A DNA stretch of 64,000 nt from a virus. Location of the stretch: IMG/VR virus record IMGVR_UViG_3300033143_008750, positions 1-64,000 of that record. One strand, 5' to 3'. The notes under the pieces are model-generated. The model did not search any database. It was not told the DNA's origin and was given only the letters and a program-made list of their open reading frames with translations. Shown one piece after another: positions 7,940 through 60,744 of the stretch; within the stretch, counting starts at the first letter, position 1, and every line of letters starts with the position of its first letter. The translations under genes were made by a program, and so were the position numbers.

Positions 7940-8722
7940 TTGTGCGTGAGACTATAAGCAATGGCAACATTGTGAATGCGGGGAATCCAACAATAACCGC
8001 GCCACCTCTTCGGAGAATGGTAACCCCACGCAAGCCGCGATTCAAACGGCTTCGCTAAGGCGGAGATACTTAGAACGCAAGGCAAAGGGACAGGTCATAC
8101 GCTGGGGCCAACGGTGAAGGCGGAGACTGGATGTTTAACAACATCTTACCTTTGTATGTCAAACTTGCTACTAAGGAGAATCAAATGGTAGTTGTTGTGT
8201 TCGAGTCTTAGCAGGCAAGGGCTATACAGCAGTTCGATAGTTAGCGGGAAATCCTACCGCGACTAGAAGAACAGTCGAAAGTATTCTTAGCCGAAGAAAC
8301 GACAGAAGGCGTGTTGCATTTTGTATTCCAAAAGAGTATGAAACAACAGGAGTAGCACATCTTCGTTGGTACACAATTAATAATGCTCAATGTGGGCATT
8401 TGTTTTAGGAACAAAATTTTGCAGGTTCAAGTCCTGCTATTAATTAAACGTAAAGACTGCTCCAATGTTAGACGGAAATGGCTTAATTCATCACTCTTCG
8501 GAGAATGGTGACTAACAGAAGCTCACAAGGTGGAAGTTAGTTTATGCAAATCTGCTATCGCCAGCGACTCATAAATCGGCAGCCATGTTGTTAGACTGTT
8601 TCGTAGCTTCGGCTTGGGGCAGTGGATAAGTTCTTAACCATCGGGGTTGTACCCAATGGGCAAGGGAGCGAAGGTAATAGCAGGTATGTGTAATCTCAGC
8701 ACACCACTCTTTCTACAACGGA
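7940..8722 (+). ncRNA. Large structured non-coding RNA candidate (GOLLD-like context)
   Basis: This stretch has no supported gene, although the surrounding genome has overlapping genes. It is full of stable hairpins: CAATG-GCAA-CATTG (GNRA loop, 7959-7972), CTC-TTCG-GAG (8006-8015 and 8494-8503), AAGCCG/CGGCTT (8032-8052), CTAAC/GTTAG (8511-8540), AGC-TTCG-GCT, and a nested CCAT-GGG/CCC-ATGG near 8637-8660. A 16-base sequence, CTCTTCGGAGAATGGT, occurs twice. A tRNA-like cloverleaf is embedded at 8376-8445. Size, phage setting and embedded tRNA recall GOLLD RNAs; that identity is inference. Confidence 0.65.
8376..8445 (+). tRNA. tRNA-like cloverleaf, anticodon loop UAG, no CCA
   Basis: All four stems form: acceptor ATTAATA/TATTAAT, D arm GCTC/GGGC with a five-base loop lacking the GG pair, anticodon stem TTTGT/ACAAA with loop TTTAGGA (anticodon TAG), T arm GCAGG-TTCAAGT-CCTGC. 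The variable loop is five bases. CCA is not encoded, which would require the CCA-adding enzyme at 23792. The short D loop makes it either an odd tRNA or a structural mimic within the larger RNA. Confidence 0.55.
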
Positions 8723-19789: not shown

Positions 19790-20003
19790 GTGGATACTAA
19801 TATTGAAGCTTCTAGGCCAAGATCACGAAACTGGTGAAATAGATTGGCATGAAGCTGTAAGGGTTGAGAACTTATCATTTCAGACTTGCATTGACGAATT
19901 AGTAACGATGGTCAACATATTTCAGATGGAAGGCATAGAGCATGACGTATACTGCAAAGAAATGCCCGAAGAAACAACGGAAAAAGAAACGGTTGATAAA
20001 TAA
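19776..20003 (+). CDS. Small alpha/beta protein, unknown
   Basis: 75 residues from ATG 19776 with AGCAGG five bases upstream; a GTG at 19770 is the alternative. WILILKLLGQDHETGEIDW and a helix with Cys follow. Its last codons overlap the -35 box of the tmRNA promoter. Confidence 0.6.
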   Translation: MTVTKWILILKLLGQDHETGEIDWHEAVRVENLSFQTCIDELVTMVNIFQMEGIEHDVYCKEMPEETTEKETVDK

Positions 20004-20021
20004 CTGTAGTTAATGTATAAT
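19993..20021 (+). promoter_or_regulatory. Sigma70-type promoter of the tmRNA
   Basis: TTGATA (19993-19998), 17 bases, TATAAT (20016-20021), placing transcription start near 20028, just upstream of the acceptor piece. Confidence 0.88.
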
Positions 20022-20027
20022 AATGAA

Positions 20028-20440
20028 ATAGTTGTGTGATAGTGTGTTAGTAGGCTGGGACGGACGCGGCTTCGAAGCCGCCATCTCCACCAATTTCGAA
20101 AGCACTCTCGTAAATCGCAGCAATCTCAGACGGCGCCAAAACGCTATCTTAAGCATAATCTAAGTATGTGGGACCTGTGGGGAGAGTGTTACTTCGGGGA
20201 TGAATTGGAATCGACGTACGGATCGGAAGCACAAAGGACAACTCGCTTGGCAACGTAATTGCTAACTAAAGCAATCGGAAACGAAAACTTTGAAATCATC
20301 GGCATGAGAGAAGCTTCGGCTTCTTTCGCGTAATCTAAACAATTACACCGATCGAGCTATAAGCCAGCTTGTAACCAAATGAGCTAGGAAAGGGGCATCG
20401 ACGTAGCTGAAAACTCTACGTTCGCCCCTTTCTGCTTTTA
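20028..20440 (+). ncRNA. ssrA: Circularly permuted two-piece tmRNA
   Basis: tmRNA frees ribosomes stalled on broken messages and tags the peptide for proteolysis. The acceptor part comes first and ends GGACGCGGC-TTCGAA-GCCGC-CATCTCC-ACCA (CCA 20090-20092). The coding part starts at 20196 with GGGGATGAATTGGAATCGACG, the classic tmRNA 5' sequence. Its first seven bases GGGGATG pair with CATCTCC (20082-20088), one G-U pair, so the tRNA-like end is assembled from two pieces. The stretch between (about 20093-20195) has a CACTCTC/GAGAGTG stem and would be cut out. A likely tag frame at 20263-20316 reads GNENFEIIGMREASASFA then stop. The transcript ends at a strong terminator. Confidence 0.92.
20389..20440 (+). 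terminator. Rho-independent terminator after tmRNA
   Basis: AAAGGGGC (20389-20396) pairs with GCCCCTTT (20424-20431), with an inner ACGTAG/CTACGT stem, followed by CTGCTTTTA. Confidence 0.88.
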
Positions 20441-20456: not shown

Positions 20457-20876
20457 ATGAGATTAGACGAAATCACAAGAACAAACGGTGCAGTCGATAG
20501 GAAGCTTCCTGGGCTATATAATGCTCAAGTTGGCGACATTATCGAAATTGGCTTCGAAGGTTCTAGAATCAAACACAAAGCTAAAATCGCAAAAGTCGTA
20601 GGAAACGATAGATTAGTTGATGCTGACGGCAACATATTTAATCGTAGCGGAATAGTATTTCGTCGCAAATCATATCCCCTAACATCATTTCGTGGCAAGA
20701 TCATATCTGCAAAACAAATGACACAGAAAGCACTAGACAATGACCACGAAGATCGTAAAGTTGATTACTTGAAACGCAATAATTGGGAGAATGTTGATCC
20801 AGAAACAAGAGATAAAATCTTGTCTCTATTACGTGTGTCTTTCACTTCTATGCAAGGCATGAAAGATTACAAATGA
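20457..20876 (+). CDS. Phage protein with MRLxE start, probably leaderless
   Basis: 139 residues. The start MRLDEITRTNG resembles the next protein's MRLHELVEH. A central barrel (AQVGDIIEIGFEGSRIKHKAKI) carries a KOW/SH3-like pattern. The similar short start on both proteins may be a targeting leader such as the capsid-targeting sequence of T4-type phages; this is a guess. Overlaps the next gene by ATGA. Confidence 0.66.
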   Translation: MRLDEITRTNGAVDRKLPGLYNAQVGDIIEIGFEGSRIKHKAKIAKVVGNDRLVDADGNIFNRSGIVFRRKSYPLTSFRGKIISAKQMTQKALDNDHEDRKVDYLKRNNWENVDPETRDKILSLLRVSFTSMQGMKDYK

Positions 20877-21712
20877 GACTTCACGAATTAGTAGAACATA
20901 CCTTTCCTAAGATTAAAACACATGATCGCAAAGGTGCGCACTTGCCTGACTTGTATAACTATGATGATGAAGAGGCATACATAGGTCCAAATGATAATCC
21001 TCCTGGTTCAGGCAATCCTAATCTAGACAATCCTGATATAGATACACTCGGCACTGGCGCATTCGCTACTGCGTATCGACATAAAGATACTCCGCATGAT
21101 GTTACGAAAGGTTCAAAAGCACAATCTGAACCCGATGGCTGGCAGGTACTATTTACTGCATTATCTAAAGATGAAGATGCACAAGCAAATCCATACTTTC
21201 CCCGCTTTCGCAGTATCAACACATTCAAACAGAATGATGATTATGCAGTCGATCCTAAGCAATCATACGTAGTCAAAGTAGAAGCACTTGAGCCATATGC
21301 AAATCTATCAGACAAAGAACGTGAAATGCTAGTCAACAAAATATTCGAAGAAACGGGCGAAGATATAATTAATCATTATTGGGAAGAAGAAACCCGTGAT
21401 CGTTGGAATCCCCGCGGCCAGCCACAGAGCTTCCCAGGGCAAAAGTTTGCATGGGCGATTCGTGCTTGTCTAGAAGGAGACACATGGCAAGATGAATTAC
21501 GCTGGGCAATTCAAGACAAGAAATTTCTACAAGCAATTGAATTTCTACAAAAGACTGCTAAAGAATCAAACTACGAATTTGACCTACATCGAGAAAACAT
21601 GATGATTCGTAGGACATCAGTTGGTGTACAGCTAGTACTCAACGATCCACTAGGATTCAGTACCGACGCCAAGCAAAAACAAGAAGTCGAAGGCCATCCT
21701 GATTGGGAATAA
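20873..21712 (+). CDS. Protein kinase-like protein
   Basis: 279 residues. LGTGAFATAYRH (about residue 62) resembles a glycine-rich ATP loop; SYVVKVEAL (about 135) has the lysine of strand 3; YEFDLHRENMMIRR (about 240) matches a catalytic loop D-x-H-x-x-N; LVLNDPLGF resembles the DFG-type metal motif as DPLG. Together they suggest a divergent kinase fold. Its N-terminus MRLHELVEHTFPKIKTHD may be a leader. Activity and target unproven. Confidence 0.66.
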   Translation: MRLHELVEHTFPKIKTHDRKGAHLPDLYNYDDEEAYIGPNDNPPGSGNPNLDNPDIDTLGTGAFATAYRHKDTPHDVTKGSKAQSEPDGWQVLFTALSKDEDAQANPYFPRFRSINTFKQNDDYAVDPKQSYVVKVEALEPYANLSDKEREMLVNKIFEETGEDIINHYWEEETRDRWNPRGQPQSFPGQKFAWAIRACLEGDTWQDELRWAIQDKKFLQAIEFLQKTAKESNYEFDLHRENMMIRRTSVGVQLVLNDPLGFSTDAKQKQEVEGHPDWE

Positions 21713-23791: not shown

Positions 23792-24970
23792 ATGAGAACA
23801 TACATAGTCGGTGGCGCAGTTAGAGACTTTCTGCTCGGCAAGCCTGTCAAGGACTTCGATTATGTAGTCACAGGTGCTACGCCACAGGACATGCTCGACC
23901 AAGGTTTCACACAGGTCGGCGCTGACTTCCCCGTTTTCCTTCATCCTGATACCAAAGACGAGTATGCACTTGCGCGAACTGAGCGCAAGACTGCTGCTGG
24001 ATATCACGGTTTCGAGGTTAACTTCGATCCCACTGTTACCATAGAGGACGATCTGTCCCGCAGAGACCTGACTATAAACGCTATGGCAGTTGCAGTCGAG
24101 GATTGGGAGACTTACAAGTTTACTCTAGATCATCAACTCCTTGTTGATCCGTATGATGGCTTCACTGATCTGAACCGTCGAAGGCTGCATGTTGTTGGTA
24201 AGGATTTCGATACGTACAGTGAGCAAGAGAATCAGACGTTTCATACTGCATTCGGAGAGGATCCAGTTCGGATACTGCGTACTGCACGATTCCAGGCACG
24301 ATACGGCTTTGCACAATCTCGCGAGACCACTGTCGCTATAATGGAGATGGTTAAGAACGGAGAGGTTGACGCACTAGTTCCTGAGAGGGTTTGGACTGAG
24401 ACTGTTAAGGCGATAGCAGAGGATCGTGATCCGCTTGACTTTTTCTTCTTCCTAGACTTCCATGATTGCAAAAAGAAGCTGTTTAAGCAACTGAATCTGA
24501 CTGATGCACTGATATACCATTTTGATAACGTTCGATACATGAACGCGAAGCAAAGAATGGCGCTGCTGACTGTTGGTTTCAAGAACGTCGATCAAGTTGG
24601 TGCTTTCTTCGATAAGCTGAAGGCTCCGACTGACTTCAAGAGACTCGCACAGGCTGTTCACAGACTTGCGAAGCTTGCTAACATGCCTCAGAAGGATTGG
24701 ACTGCTGAGACTATAGTTGATACGCTGGCACTGGTTCACGCAGACGATCTTGATTCTGCTACGTCAACCGTTATGGGTATGCATGAGGATTACGTTAGCG
24801 ACGGTTTTGAGGATCGAGCTACTTTCTCTGGCTACATGTTTGCTATACTTGGCGACATAGGTTTCAAAAACCTGACGCTAGATCAGCAAGCTACGCTGAA
24901 AGGCAAGGCGATAGGTGATGCGCTGCGCGACATAAAGGTTGCTACGACGGGAGCAATGCTAGATGCTTAA
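23792..24970 (+). CDS. cca: CCA-adding enzyme (tRNA nucleotidyltransferase)
   Basis: 392 residues, the usual size of a class II CCA-adding enzyme, which builds or repairs tRNA 3' ends. Visible: [21 protein letters not shown] with the GG loop and the metal aspartates [13 protein letters not shown] (about residue 89); [14 protein letters not shown]; and the nucleotide-selecting [18 protein letters not shown] (about residue 155). All core motifs are intact. It would complete the tRNA-like sequence at 8376, which lacks CCA. It could also repair tRNAs attacked by host defences. Confidence 0.95.
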
Positions 24971-52149: not shown

Positions 52150-52228
52150 GAATTTGTGTGATCCGTTTGGGGATCGGTAGAGCACCTAGACGAAGATTGT
52201 GCAGTCACTTCTTGTTAACATTGTTGAT

Positions 52229-53080
52229 ATGAATACTGCCAAAATTTGTAAACGACTGGCTCATAAGTCCAACACTTATGATGAACGTCGGTGGATGGCT
52301 ATTAGTTTGCTAAATAGTTCAGCTAGGATGGGGACTTCGGGTGGGGAATTCGAGGGCACAGACACATACAAGGCAAATATGGCATATACGAAAAAGATTA
52401 AAAAAATAATAGACGATGGCATAATTACTTATATCAACGATTACGGAATAGATCCTGAACATCGCGAAATCTATCTATTTCCAAGAGAAGAATACATGTA
52501 CGGCGGCGGCGACGAAGGCCTCGCAGAACCAGGCGTCGAATTCAGTCTCGCAAATCAATTCATCCGCAACATCAGAATCTTATCAAATATCTCACCTGAT
52601 CCTATTCTCATACACCTAAAATCTTGTGGTGGAGAATGGCACGAAGGTCTTGCGATGTATCAAGCAATCAAAGCTTGCAGATGCCACGTAACAATCCTAA
52701 ACTATGCAAGCGCACGTAGCATGAGCAGCATCATATTCTCAGCAGCAGATCATCGTGCAATGATGCCATTTTCAACATTTATGATTCACACAGGTACTCT
52801 GGTGCTACTCGGCACAGGCACACAAATTCAAACTGAATATGAAGAAGCTAAGAAAGCAGATAAAATTATGCTTGATATTTACGTTGACTTACTCAAAGAA
52901 TCTGAACTAATGAAAAGCTGGACACGTAAACGTATTAACACATGGCTTGTCAAGAAAATGAAAGACAAAGAAGAGGTCTACTTCACAGCAGAAGAAGCAG
53001 TAGAGCATAATTTTGCAGATACGATCTTCGGCGCCGACGGAACCTACGACTGGAGTGCATTAACTAATTCCTCCACATAA
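52229..53080 (+). CDS. ClpP-like serine protease
   Basis: 283 residues from ATG 52229; a GTG at 52199 is also possible. A core ClpP fold: PILIHLKSCGGEWHEGLAMY, NYASARSMSSIIFSAADHRAM with the nucleophile Ser (about residue 162), STFMIHTG with the catalytic His. The N-terminal 100 residues are extra relative to ClpP, with RREWM-type helices. It could degrade tagged peptides with host Clp ATPases, or act in head maturation. Its position before late genes allows either. Confidence 0.87.
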   Translation: MNTAKICKRLAHKSNTYDERRWMAISLLNSSARMGTSGGEFEGTDTYKANMAYTKKIKKIIDDGIITYINDYGIDPEHREIYLFPREEYMYGGGDEGLAEPGVEFSLANQFIRNIRILSNISPDPILIHLKSCGGEWHEGLAMYQAIKACRCHVTILNYASARSMSSIIFSAADHRAMMPFSTFMIHTGTLVLLGTGTQIQTEYEEAKKADKIMLDIYVDLLKESELMKSWTRKRINTWLVKKMKDKEEVYFTAEEAVEHNFADTIFGADGTYDWSALTNSST

Positions 53081-56991: not shown

Positions 56992-57057
56992 GAGAAAGGT
57001 GGACTTTCTCAAGCAGCAAGGGATTCTTGCAGCAAGCAGACGATACGGAGGGTATCG
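56992..57057 (+). promoter_or_regulatory. Three-hairpin leader, RBS in the last loop
   Basis: GAGAAAG-GTGGA-CTTTCTC (56992-57010), GCAAG-GGATT-CTTGC (57016-57030) and CGATAC-GGAGG-GTATCG (57041-57057). The ribosome binding site GGAGG is the loop of the third. Candidate riboswitch or protein-bound control element; no known class recognised. Confidence 0.65.
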
Positions 57058-57059
57058 AA

Positions 57060-58133
57060 GTGAGTGAAAGAAAATACGATTTAGCCGTGTTCATCGGCCG
57101 TATGCAGCCCTTACACAACGGGCATGTACAAAACATCCAAAACGCCCTCGAAATTGCAGACAATGTTCTGGTTATCGTAGGCTCAGCAAATCAACCCCGT
57201 ACTCCCAGAAATCCGTTCACGGTAAATGAACGTGCTGAAATGATATATTCAGTTTTCGGCGAAGATTGTGACCGTGTACAAGTCGAAGGAGTTGAAGATT
57301 ATTACCCTGACGCACTCTGGCTCAAAGATGTCCAGACTGTAGCGCACAAGCACATTATCGGCGCGGATATAGAACACTTTACTGATGCAAAAGTAGCAAT
57401 TCTCGGCCACGACAAAGATCACACAAGTTTCTATCTGAATGAGTTTCCTACCTGGGATTTCATTGAGATTGGTCATCGACTTCGACAAGCAAAGTTTCCT
57501 AGAATTATTGATGCGACTAACATTCGCAATGCATATTTCGACGGTGATTTCGACCACATTGTCGATCAAATTCCAGCAGAAGTTTCTGCCTTCATGCAGA
57601 AATTCTACAAAACTCCAAAATACAATATGCTTGTTGAAGAACAAGCATACATCACTCGTTACAAAGAAGAATGGTCAGCAGCACCTTATGCGCCAACTTT
57701 CGTAACGACTGACGCAGTTGTTGTACAAAGCGGCCACGTACTTTTAGTCAAAAGACGCACCGCACCTGGAAAAGGTCTTTGGGCACTCCCAGGCGGCTTT
57801 TTGAATCAAACTGAACGTTTAGAAGATGGCGTGATTCGCGAGCTACGTGAGGAAACAAAATTGAAAGTTCCCGTCAAAGTCTTAGAGGGCAGCATACAGC
57901 ACAAGCACACGACAGTATTTGATGCGCCTAACAGAAGCTTACGGGGCCGCACAATCACAAACGCATTTCTCATTGATCTTGCTGCGCAGCCTAAGCTGCC
58001 TAAGGTCAAAGGCGCTGACGATGCAGAAGAAGCCAAATGGTTTCCTCTAAATGTAGTTGACGCAATGGGAAGTATTCTTTTCGAAGATCACAAGCTAATC
58101 ATCCAAACGATGGTTGCGAAGTTGGAGAACTAA
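57060..58133 (+). CDS. nadM: Bifunctional NMN adenylyltransferase / Nudix hydrolase
   Basis: 357 residues from GTG 57060, eight bases after GGAGG. The N-terminal nucleotidyltransferase (VFIGRMQPLHNGHVQNI with the H-x-GH motif; later IIDATNIRNAYF) joins NMN and ATP to make NAD+. The C-terminal Nudix domain has GGFLNQTERLEDGVIRELRE, with all box residues, and may hydrolyse ADP-ribose or related dinucleotides. This domain order is known for NadM-Nudix proteins. With the NAMPT gene it completes salvage from nicotinamide. Confidence 0.93.
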   Translation: MSERKYDLAVFIGRMQPLHNGHVQNIQNALEIADNVLVIVGSANQPRTPRNPFTVNERAEMIYSVFGEDCDRVQVEGVEDYYPDALWLKDVQTVAHKHIIGADIEHFTDAKVAILGHDKDHTSFYLNEFPTWDFIEIGHRLRQAKFPRIIDATNIRNAYFDGDFDHIVDQIPAEVSAFMQKFYKTPKYNMLVEEQAYITRYKEEWSAAPYAPTFVTTDAVVVQSGHVLLVKRRTAPGKGLWALPGGFLNQTERLEDGVIRELREETKLKVPVKVLEGSIQHKHTTVFDAPNRSLRGRTITNAFLIDLAAQPKLPKVKGADDAEEAKWFPLNVVDAMGSILFEDHKLIIQTMVAKLEN

Positions 58134-59194: not shown

Positions 59195-59213
59195 ATTGTA
59201 AGGAGATTACAAT
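59195..59213 (+). promoter_or_regulatory. Hairpin presenting the NAMPT ribosome binding site
   Basis: ATTGTAA (59195-59201), loop GGAGA, TTACAAT (59207-59213). The ATG begins in the second arm at 59212. It has the same plan as the hairpin of the NMNAT gene. Confidence 0.75.
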
Positions 59214-60744
59214 GAGCATTATTCAAGAAATTAGAGAAACATACGGAGTAGCTGGTGACACAGATAGCTACAAATTCTCACACCCTGACCAGTATCCAGT
59301 AGGAACGACCAGGTTGATGAGTCACATTTTTGCACGAGGCAGTACAAAAGGTGCAGACGGCCTTCCGCTGTTTACGAAAGTGCAGTGGGCTGGAATGCAG
59401 CTAGTAATCAAAGAGCACCTCGACCGTCAGTTGACGCACAGGCAGGTTGACAACCTTATTGCTTTCCAAAGAGAACACATGTTCGGACTTGAACTAAATG
59501 CACTGGAAGTTGCACTTCGCGCAGTAGTTGACGATTACCTCGGCTACATGCCTGTCAGGATCCGCGCAATTCAGGAAGGTCTGGTCGTTCCGATCGGTCA
59601 AATCCTTGCTACAGTTGAAACTACTGTAGAAGATGCGCGTGTAATTGCACTAACAACGTATATCGAAACAATGATTATGCGTGTCTGGGCACCTACAACA
59701 GTTGCAACAACATCCTACCACATCAAAGAAATCATTTACGATGGTTTGCTGAAATCAGCAGATGAGCCAGATTTTGAGATCCCGTTCAAGCTACATGACT
59801 TCGGTTCTCGCGGTGTGTCAAGCATGGAGAGCGCAGCATTCCTTGGCGCAGCACACTTGTTCAATTTCCAAGGCAGTGACACGACAGTTGGTGTTATGGC
59901 AGCAAACATCGGGTACCATTCTGATATGACTGGCCGCAGCATCTTTGCTACGGAGCACAGCACAACGACAACGTTTGGTCGTTACGGCGAAGAAGCATTT
60001 GTTAAGCAGGTGTTTTCCAAGGCTGCAAAGCCAGGCGCGATCTTTGCTACAGTAATAGATAGTTACGATCCTATTAACTTTGTTGATGTTATCGCACCGA
60101 AGTTCAGGGATCGCCTACGCAAATCAGGTGCAACATGGGTGCTTCGTCCAGACAGTGGTGATCCTGTCATCACACCAGTAGAAATGGTACGCAGGCTTGC
60201 AAAAACATATGGATTCACTTACAATAGTAAGGGCTACAAGGTTCTTGACAACGTGCGTGTACTCCAAGGCGACGGCATTGATATTAACGATGTTAGAGCA
60301 ATCATTAACCTGCTACTTGAAGAAAACTGGAGCATAAGCAACATTGCTTTTGGAATGGGTGGTGGTCTGTTACAGAAGAACAACAGAGACACGCTCAAGT
60401 TTGCAATGAAGGCTTGCGCAAGGTATGAAGATGGTCAATGGATCGACGTTTACAAAGATCCTATCATTTACGACGCAACGACCTGGGAACCAATTAGCTC
60501 TAGCTTCAAGAAATCAATGGCTGGACGCTTAGAGTTGGTTCACAACGAGGTAACTGACGACTACAAAACCGTACGCATTGAGGAAGTTAACGACTACGTA
60601 GTACAGGGTTACAAGCCAATGCTTGAGACGGTTTGGGATGCAGGCGAACTCATACGCGATATGACTATGGATCAGGTGCGTGAAAACGCTAAACTTCCAG
60701 CAGAACGTATTGCAATTGAGAAAGTAGTAGCCGAAACTGCCTAA
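59212..60744 (+). CDS. nadV: Nicotinamide phosphoribosyltransferase
   Basis: 510 residues, typical NAMPT length. It makes NMN from nicotinamide and PRPP. Recognisable: AGDTDSYKFSHPDQYPVGTT at the start, LHDFGSRGVSSMESAA (about residue 195) carrying the His region near the active site, GVMAANIGYHSDMTG, ATVIDSYDPINFVD, RKSGATWVLRPDSGDPV (PRPP phosphate site). Complete and likely active. It follows four small genes after the NMNAT gene, so the two form an NAD+ salvage route. Confidence 0.96.
   Translation: MSIIQEIRETYGVAGDTDSYKFSHPDQYPVGTTRLMSHIFARGSTKGADGLPLFTKVQWAGMQLVIKEHLDRQLTHRQVDNLIAFQREHMFGLELNALEVALRAVVDDYLGYMPVRIRAIQEGLVVPIGQILATVETTVEDARVIALTTYIETMIMRVWAPTTVATTSYHIKEIIYDGLLKSADEPDFEIPFKLHDFGSRGVSSMESAAFLGAAHLFNFQGSDTTVGVMAANIGYHSDMTGRSIFATEHSTTTTFGRYGEEAFVKQVFSKAAKPGAIFATVIDSYDPINFVDVIAPKFRDRLRKSGATWVLRPDSGDPVITPVEMVRRLAKTYGFTYNSKGYKVLDNVRVLQGDGIDINDVRAIINLLLEENWSISNIAFGMGGGLLQKNNRDTLKFAMKACARYEDGQWIDVYKDPIIYDATTWEPISSSFKKSMAGRLELVHNEVTDDYKTVRIEEVNDYVVQGYKPMLETVWDAGELIRDMTMDQVRENAKLPAERIAIEKVVAETA

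Follow-up and report, generated by a model that had tools for sequence, protein, structure and literature searches.

A divergent circularly permuted two-piece tmRNA gene with an unusual tag end in an uncultured phage

Circularly permuted tmRNAs, in which the acceptor half is encoded ahead of the coding half, are known from both bacteria and phages, and a two-piece tmRNA has been proven to work in Caulobacter, in research cited in PMC3985003. A 2022 report described methylophage Melnitz and, in a set of 133 unique phage tmRNAs, 53 of two-piece form; in its authors' proposal, a phage tmRNA either sustains the hijacked machinery or puts tags on host proteins early (PMC9004378). A curated database of 2025 covers every form of tmRNA in bacteriophages, with 79 unique members, and is the source of the Rfam model RF04321, tmRNA_permuted (PMC11915505). 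An initial sequence-only reading of the locus described here took phage copies not to be well described; with two-piece phage tmRNAs already published and a phage tmRNA database in existence, this does not hold, and the gene is therefore a divergent addition to a known type.

The gene lies in a window of 64,000 nucleotides, the whole stretch of DNA analysed, taken from an uncultured phage contig (virus record IMGVR_UViG_3300033143_008750; 72,565 bases, classed linear). The contig encodes RIIA, RIIB, NAMPT, a cytidylyltransferase-NUDIX fusion, a CCA-adding enzyme, DNA ligase, a DHH phosphoesterase, a GH108 endolysin and a ClpP-like protease; the cytidylyltransferase-NUDIX fusion and the nicotinamide phosphoribosyltransferase (57027-58133 and 59212-60744) form an apparent phage NAD salvage pair. 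A 368-aa protein encoded 3 kb upstream of the tmRNA gene has its best matches in Xanthomonas phages XacN1 and X1, followed by Burkholderia FLC9, Aeromonas Straboviridae and Sinorhizobium Phosso (33-37% identity), so that the contig probably belongs, as a fragment, to a large T4-like or jumbo phage without a close sequenced relative. No near-identical DNA was found in annotated phages, and no relative of the downstream neighbour protein (20457-20876) in viral contigs. At its C-terminal end, the 279-aa protein encoded just downstream (20873-21712) weakly matches phage protein kinases (T7 0.7-like). The window also carries a tRNA-Leu(UAG) of normal length at 737-821 and an ARAGORN-called tRNA-Leu(UAG) at 8375-8446 of only 72 nt, without the long variable arm expected of tRNA-Leu.

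Anatomy of the permuted gene

The sequence-only reading had proposed a phage-borne circularly permuted two-piece tmRNA gene, to be checked by a covariance search with a permuted tmRNA model. That search, a whole-window Rfam scan, matched RF04321 at 20030-20333 on the + strand with 82.8 bits (E 2.4e-14; cut-off 47 bits), covering positions 1-213 of 213 in the model, and gave no other tmRNA match; a repeat with permissive filters found the RF04321 match again. Score and anatomy together bear the proposal out. The features are as follows.

19993..20021, + strand: sigma-70-like promoter, TTGATA-17 nt-TATAAT, 11/12 matches (promoter scan and coordinate check)
20030..20092, + strand: acceptor piece with P2 5' strands, T arm, acceptor 3' strand and encoded ACCA (RF04321 alignment)
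20030..20062, + strand: 5' strands of the P2 helix (alignment and coordinate check)
20066..20081, + strand: T arm, 5-bp stem and 6-nt loop TTCGAA, GCGGC-TTCGAA-GCCGC (coordinate check)
20082..20092, + strand: acceptor 3' strand CATCTCC, discriminator A and encoded CCA (coordinate check)
20093..20195, + strand: intervening segment of 103 nt, predicted to be excised
20196..20388, + strand: coding (mRNA-like) piece, its 5' end the predicted RNase P site (RF04321 alignment to 20333; remainder, up to the terminator-like hairpin, presumed)
20277..20333, + strand: tag frame with resume codon GGA, encoding GNENFEIIGMREASASFA, stop TAA at 20331-20333 (homology with the conserved GCAAACGA-resume region)
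20305..20328, + strand: hairpin of 10 bp and a UUCG loop, where the tag frame ends (z -3.8, 0/200 shuffles as stable)
20390..20439, + strand: terminator-like hairpin (20390-20430), then CTGCTTTT (folding against shuffles)
23792..24970, + strand: CCA-adding tRNA nucleotidyltransferase (PHROG 2244, PF01743)
52199..53080, + strand: ClpP-like protease, beside the endolysin (PF00574)

The coordinates agree with the order first read from the letters, an acceptor half ending CATCTCC-ACCA (20082-20092) ahead of a coding half that begins GGGGATGAATTGGAATCGACG at 20196. The predicted seven-pair acceptor stem is formed by GGGGATG (20196-20202) and CATCTCC (20082-20088), with 7/7 standard pairs by coordinate check, followed by A-CCA at 20089-20092; A73-CCA is thus present in the sequence, its CCA at 20090-20092. 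The AlaRS-type G-U sought at acceptor pair 3 is there as G20198:U20086 (G3:U70), a pair shared by 183/183 of the permuted tmRNA matches collected. In the P2 helix, strands 20030-34, 20043-46, 20055-57 and 20060-62 pair with 20243-39, 20233-30, 20221-19 and 20217-15, giving 15/15 standard pairs in four runs. With 5/5 in the T stem, all 27 pairs of the tRNA-like domain are standard (7 acceptor, 5 T stem, 15 P2), and a D-like loop is present. Of the two pseudoknots expected on either side of the tag frame, PK1 is shortened and no PK2 was assigned. Several P2 pairs are unlike the RF04321 consensus on both sides with pairing kept, and such compensatory changes go beyond what chance would give. The CCA-adding enzyme of the contig could possibly maintain the tmRNA acceptor end.

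The stem said to close the removed segment is present, with CACTCTC/GAGAGTG as the core of a longer, 9-bp stem (20101-20109 / 20182-20190, 9/9 pairs); in other viral copies the intervening segment is mostly 80-110 nt long. The promoter, called perfect at first, is near-perfect at 11/12 matches, and from its -10 element (20016-20021) transcription is expected to start near the first P2 base. Sixteen sigma-70-like promoters with at least 11/12 matches occur in the window, all on the + strand, the tmRNA promoter among them. The claim of an own terminator stands as to a strong hairpin at 20390-20430 (-18.5 kcal/mol, z -3.5, 0/200 shuffles as stable), but the run after it has only four T, and a simple terminator scan called nothing at the tmRNA gene.

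ARAGORN did not call the tmRNA gene in the window. The T loop of 6 nt, against the usual 7, is probably part of the reason; since ARAGORN calls some relatives with the same 6-nt loop, other divergences must contribute. The same T arm occurs in 11 other viral contigs, all RF04321 matches, and a 6-nt T loop in 45 of the 176 parsable viral permuted matches, a count that takes in the eleven loci selected for this loop and some duplicates. A similar T arm with the loop TTCGAA was also seen in nine GTDB genomes, all alphaproteobacterial, where the matches are alpha_tmRNA genes. Degeneration, which the short loop had suggested, was rejected because the same loop is found in these viral and alphaproteobacterial genes.

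Relatives in phages and bacteria

Like Melnitz and the other marine phages (PMC9004378), the window carries a phage-encoded, permuted, tag-encoding gene of the kind found in large tailed phages; the Melnitz gene, however, is associated with a glutamine riboswitch, and none was detected in the window Rfam scan. Permuted tmRNAs, unannotated in their GenBank records, were found in five isolate phages, DLP6 (136.8 bits with RF04321), RpAliso (129.5), XacN1 (123.2; two copies), Phosso (113.3) and X1 (76.6). These share the architecture of the window gene, and XacN1, X1 and Phosso have one large-phage protein in common with the window. They differ from it in the T loop, which is of 7 nt where read, and in the tags, which in DLP6, XacN1, X1 and RpAliso are ANDDSFAPMAIAA, ANANTFDYALAA, VAANDADYSVARYA and ANENFAPVEMAVAA. 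No tag was called for Phosso (tmRNA at 1097-1699, - strand, of the examined locus), where the intervening segment is about 450 nt long, far above the others.

The tmRNAs of alphaproteobacteria (RF01849; Aliihoeflea, Mesorhizobium) are likewise permuted, some with the 6-nt TTCGAA T loop, but differ in tag, intervening segment and 3' region, and the permissive-filter Rfam scan reported no match of RF01849 (cut-off 50 bits) to the window copy. The betaproteobacterial RF01850 was the best of three clade-specific models in the window, at 44.3 bits (E 2.3e-12), below its 84-bit cut-off.

Pattern scans of IMG/VR recovered 28 contigs in which the intervening segment is long, 36 in which it is short and, for a single acceptor variant, more than 120 among the matches listed; with well over 140 viral contigs in all, the permuted architecture is common in viruses. 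A record with a weak match (46.6 bits) was rejected as a standard one-piece tmRNA, and another with a fragmentary 19.5-bit match was left out of the count. The nearest tRNA-like domains are distant by alignment score (44 vs 129 for self), and the exact T-arm/acceptor sequence TTCGAAGCCGCCATCTCCACCA was not found in other viral contigs; no close relative of the window copy was thus found, and the gene is a divergent member of the phage two-piece tmRNAs. Its RF04321 score, lower than that of most phage copies (about 100-140 bits), counts against the two-piece tmRNA reading.

The tag and its possible fates

The frame set by homology gives a tag of 18 codons and a stop (GGA AAC GAA AAC TTT GAA ATC ATC GGC ATG AGA GAA GCT TCG GCT TCT TTC GCG TAA), the encoded peptide being preceded by the alanine carried on the tmRNA. 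GGA-AAC-GAA-AAC aligns with the resume region conserved in the RF04321 family, the start GNENF parallels the ANDNF-type starts of relatives, and the tag ends in SFA, as had been read. The second frame, giving ETKTLKSSA and then a stop, and the third, with an early stop, were rejected for lack of alignment with the resume region.

ARAGORN calls in 122 of 149 viral loci yielded 79 distinct tags of viral permuted tmRNAs. AA ends were found in 71 of these, and VA, AV, YA, MA, NA or LA in the others; the FA end of the window tag falls in this small non-AA minority and is shared by no collected tag. The missing -AA end counts against an ordinary working tmRNA. Several viral permuted tmRNAs were called with very long tags of up to 31 aa (e.g. 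ANADTYDFSAMSFTGNTVRGAANESRFALAA), some with a second tag-like start inside.

ClpX and ClpA recognise a C-terminal ALAA, and Mycoplasma, which is without ClpXP, ClpAP and Tsp, has tags ending AFA (PMC3985003). The window tag resembles those of Mycoplasma in its length and in a Phe-Ala end replacing Leu-Ala-Ala, a likeness of two or three residues only. In one reading the tmRNA works but its -SFA tag has changed protease, and tagged products would escape ClpXP, to be taken by Lon or stay stable. The departure from the AA ends of 71 of the 79 tags suggests this, and the single-Ala ends of other phage tags (RYA, MVA, LVA, VLA, VMA, ANA) speak against it; we consider it a possible but rather unlikely reading. 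Slightly more doubtful is the proposal of a rescue RNA specialised for infection, which would free ribosomes as the host tmRNA does while its -SFA end would not be a normal ClpXP signal. Delivery of tagged peptides to a phage ClpP, raised in the sequence-only reading beside a possible escape from host proteases, is a weak suggestion, since the protein at 52199-53080 is closer in its matches to head-maturation proteases than to true ClpP; its best NCBIfam model is ClpP-related head maturation protease, with a score below that model's cut-off. Inspected by eye, this protein has the Ser and His motifs, and the usual catalytic Asp position is apparently Glu.

The RNA could instead be a decoy or degenerate, its mRNA-like part no longer working; with the tRNA-like domain retained, it would titrate SmpB or block host trans-translation, as has been proposed for the tRNA-like-domain-only RNA of mycobacteriophage DS6A (PMC4131195). 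Besides this precedent and the atypical tag end, the contrast between a perfect tRNA-like domain and a poorly conserved PK1 region (4 nt shorter than in RF04321, with two non-standard pairs and a fold no better than shuffles) fits such a decoy, but an in-frame tag begins at the conserved resume site, has its stop codon and ends in a stable hairpin, and most other phage copies found have ordinary AA-ending tags, which makes it improbable. The tRNA-like stems could also have come together by chance, or the gene could be a pseudogene being lost. This would agree with the score under most relatives and the missing ARAGORN call, but is largely refuted and of very low probability given the E-value of the match, the 27/27 domain pairs with compensatory P2 changes, the promoter 9 nt upstream and a T loop common to other phage and chromosomal alphaproteobacterial tmRNAs.

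Proposed action and significance

The locus is thus very probably an early-expressed, phage-encoded, circularly permuted tmRNA (ssrA) gene that performs ordinary trans-translation with host proteins. The RF04321 match, the intact pairs of the tRNA-like domain with their compensatory P2 changes, G3:U70, the aligned resume region and the GNENF tag start all argue for a two-piece tmRNA, as do the permuted tmRNAs of the related large phages XacN1, X1, Phosso, RpAliso and DLP6 and the Caulobacter precedent. The divergence of PK1 was counted against it, as was the lack of an SmpB gene, which was not found in the contig (a fragment) or in the 20 other phage records among the 21 searched; host SmpB is therefore assumed.

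The DNA and its homology directly show that the gene belongs to the family, how it is built and paired and where its tag frame lies; by analogy with the family, the RNA would be expressed, cut, charged and used with SmpB to the benefit of the phage. Early transcription from the gene's own host-type promoter would give a precursor of about 400 nt. RNase P would cut at 20195/20196, before G20196, and the 3' end would be trimmed or cut at the CCA (20092), so that the 103-nt intervening segment would be lost and two pieces would remain, held together by the acceptor stem and P2. The alanyl-tRNA synthetase of the host would recognise G3:U70 and charge the tmRNA, and host SmpB would take it to ribosomes stalled on broken mRNAs, which are expected to accumulate in infection. 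The ribosome would resume at GGA (20277), add (A)GNENFEIIGMREASASFA and be released at TAA.

The unlabelled copies in five isolate phages indicate that phage two-piece tmRNAs are under-annotated. Copies can also escape ARAGORN, and genes with a 6-nt T loop are probably among them. With its rare non-AA end, the tag is a natural case in which to ask whether phages retune what becomes of rescued peptides. If the -SFA end were indeed specialised, rescued fragments would go to another protease or be spared, and ribosome recycling would be separated from degradation.
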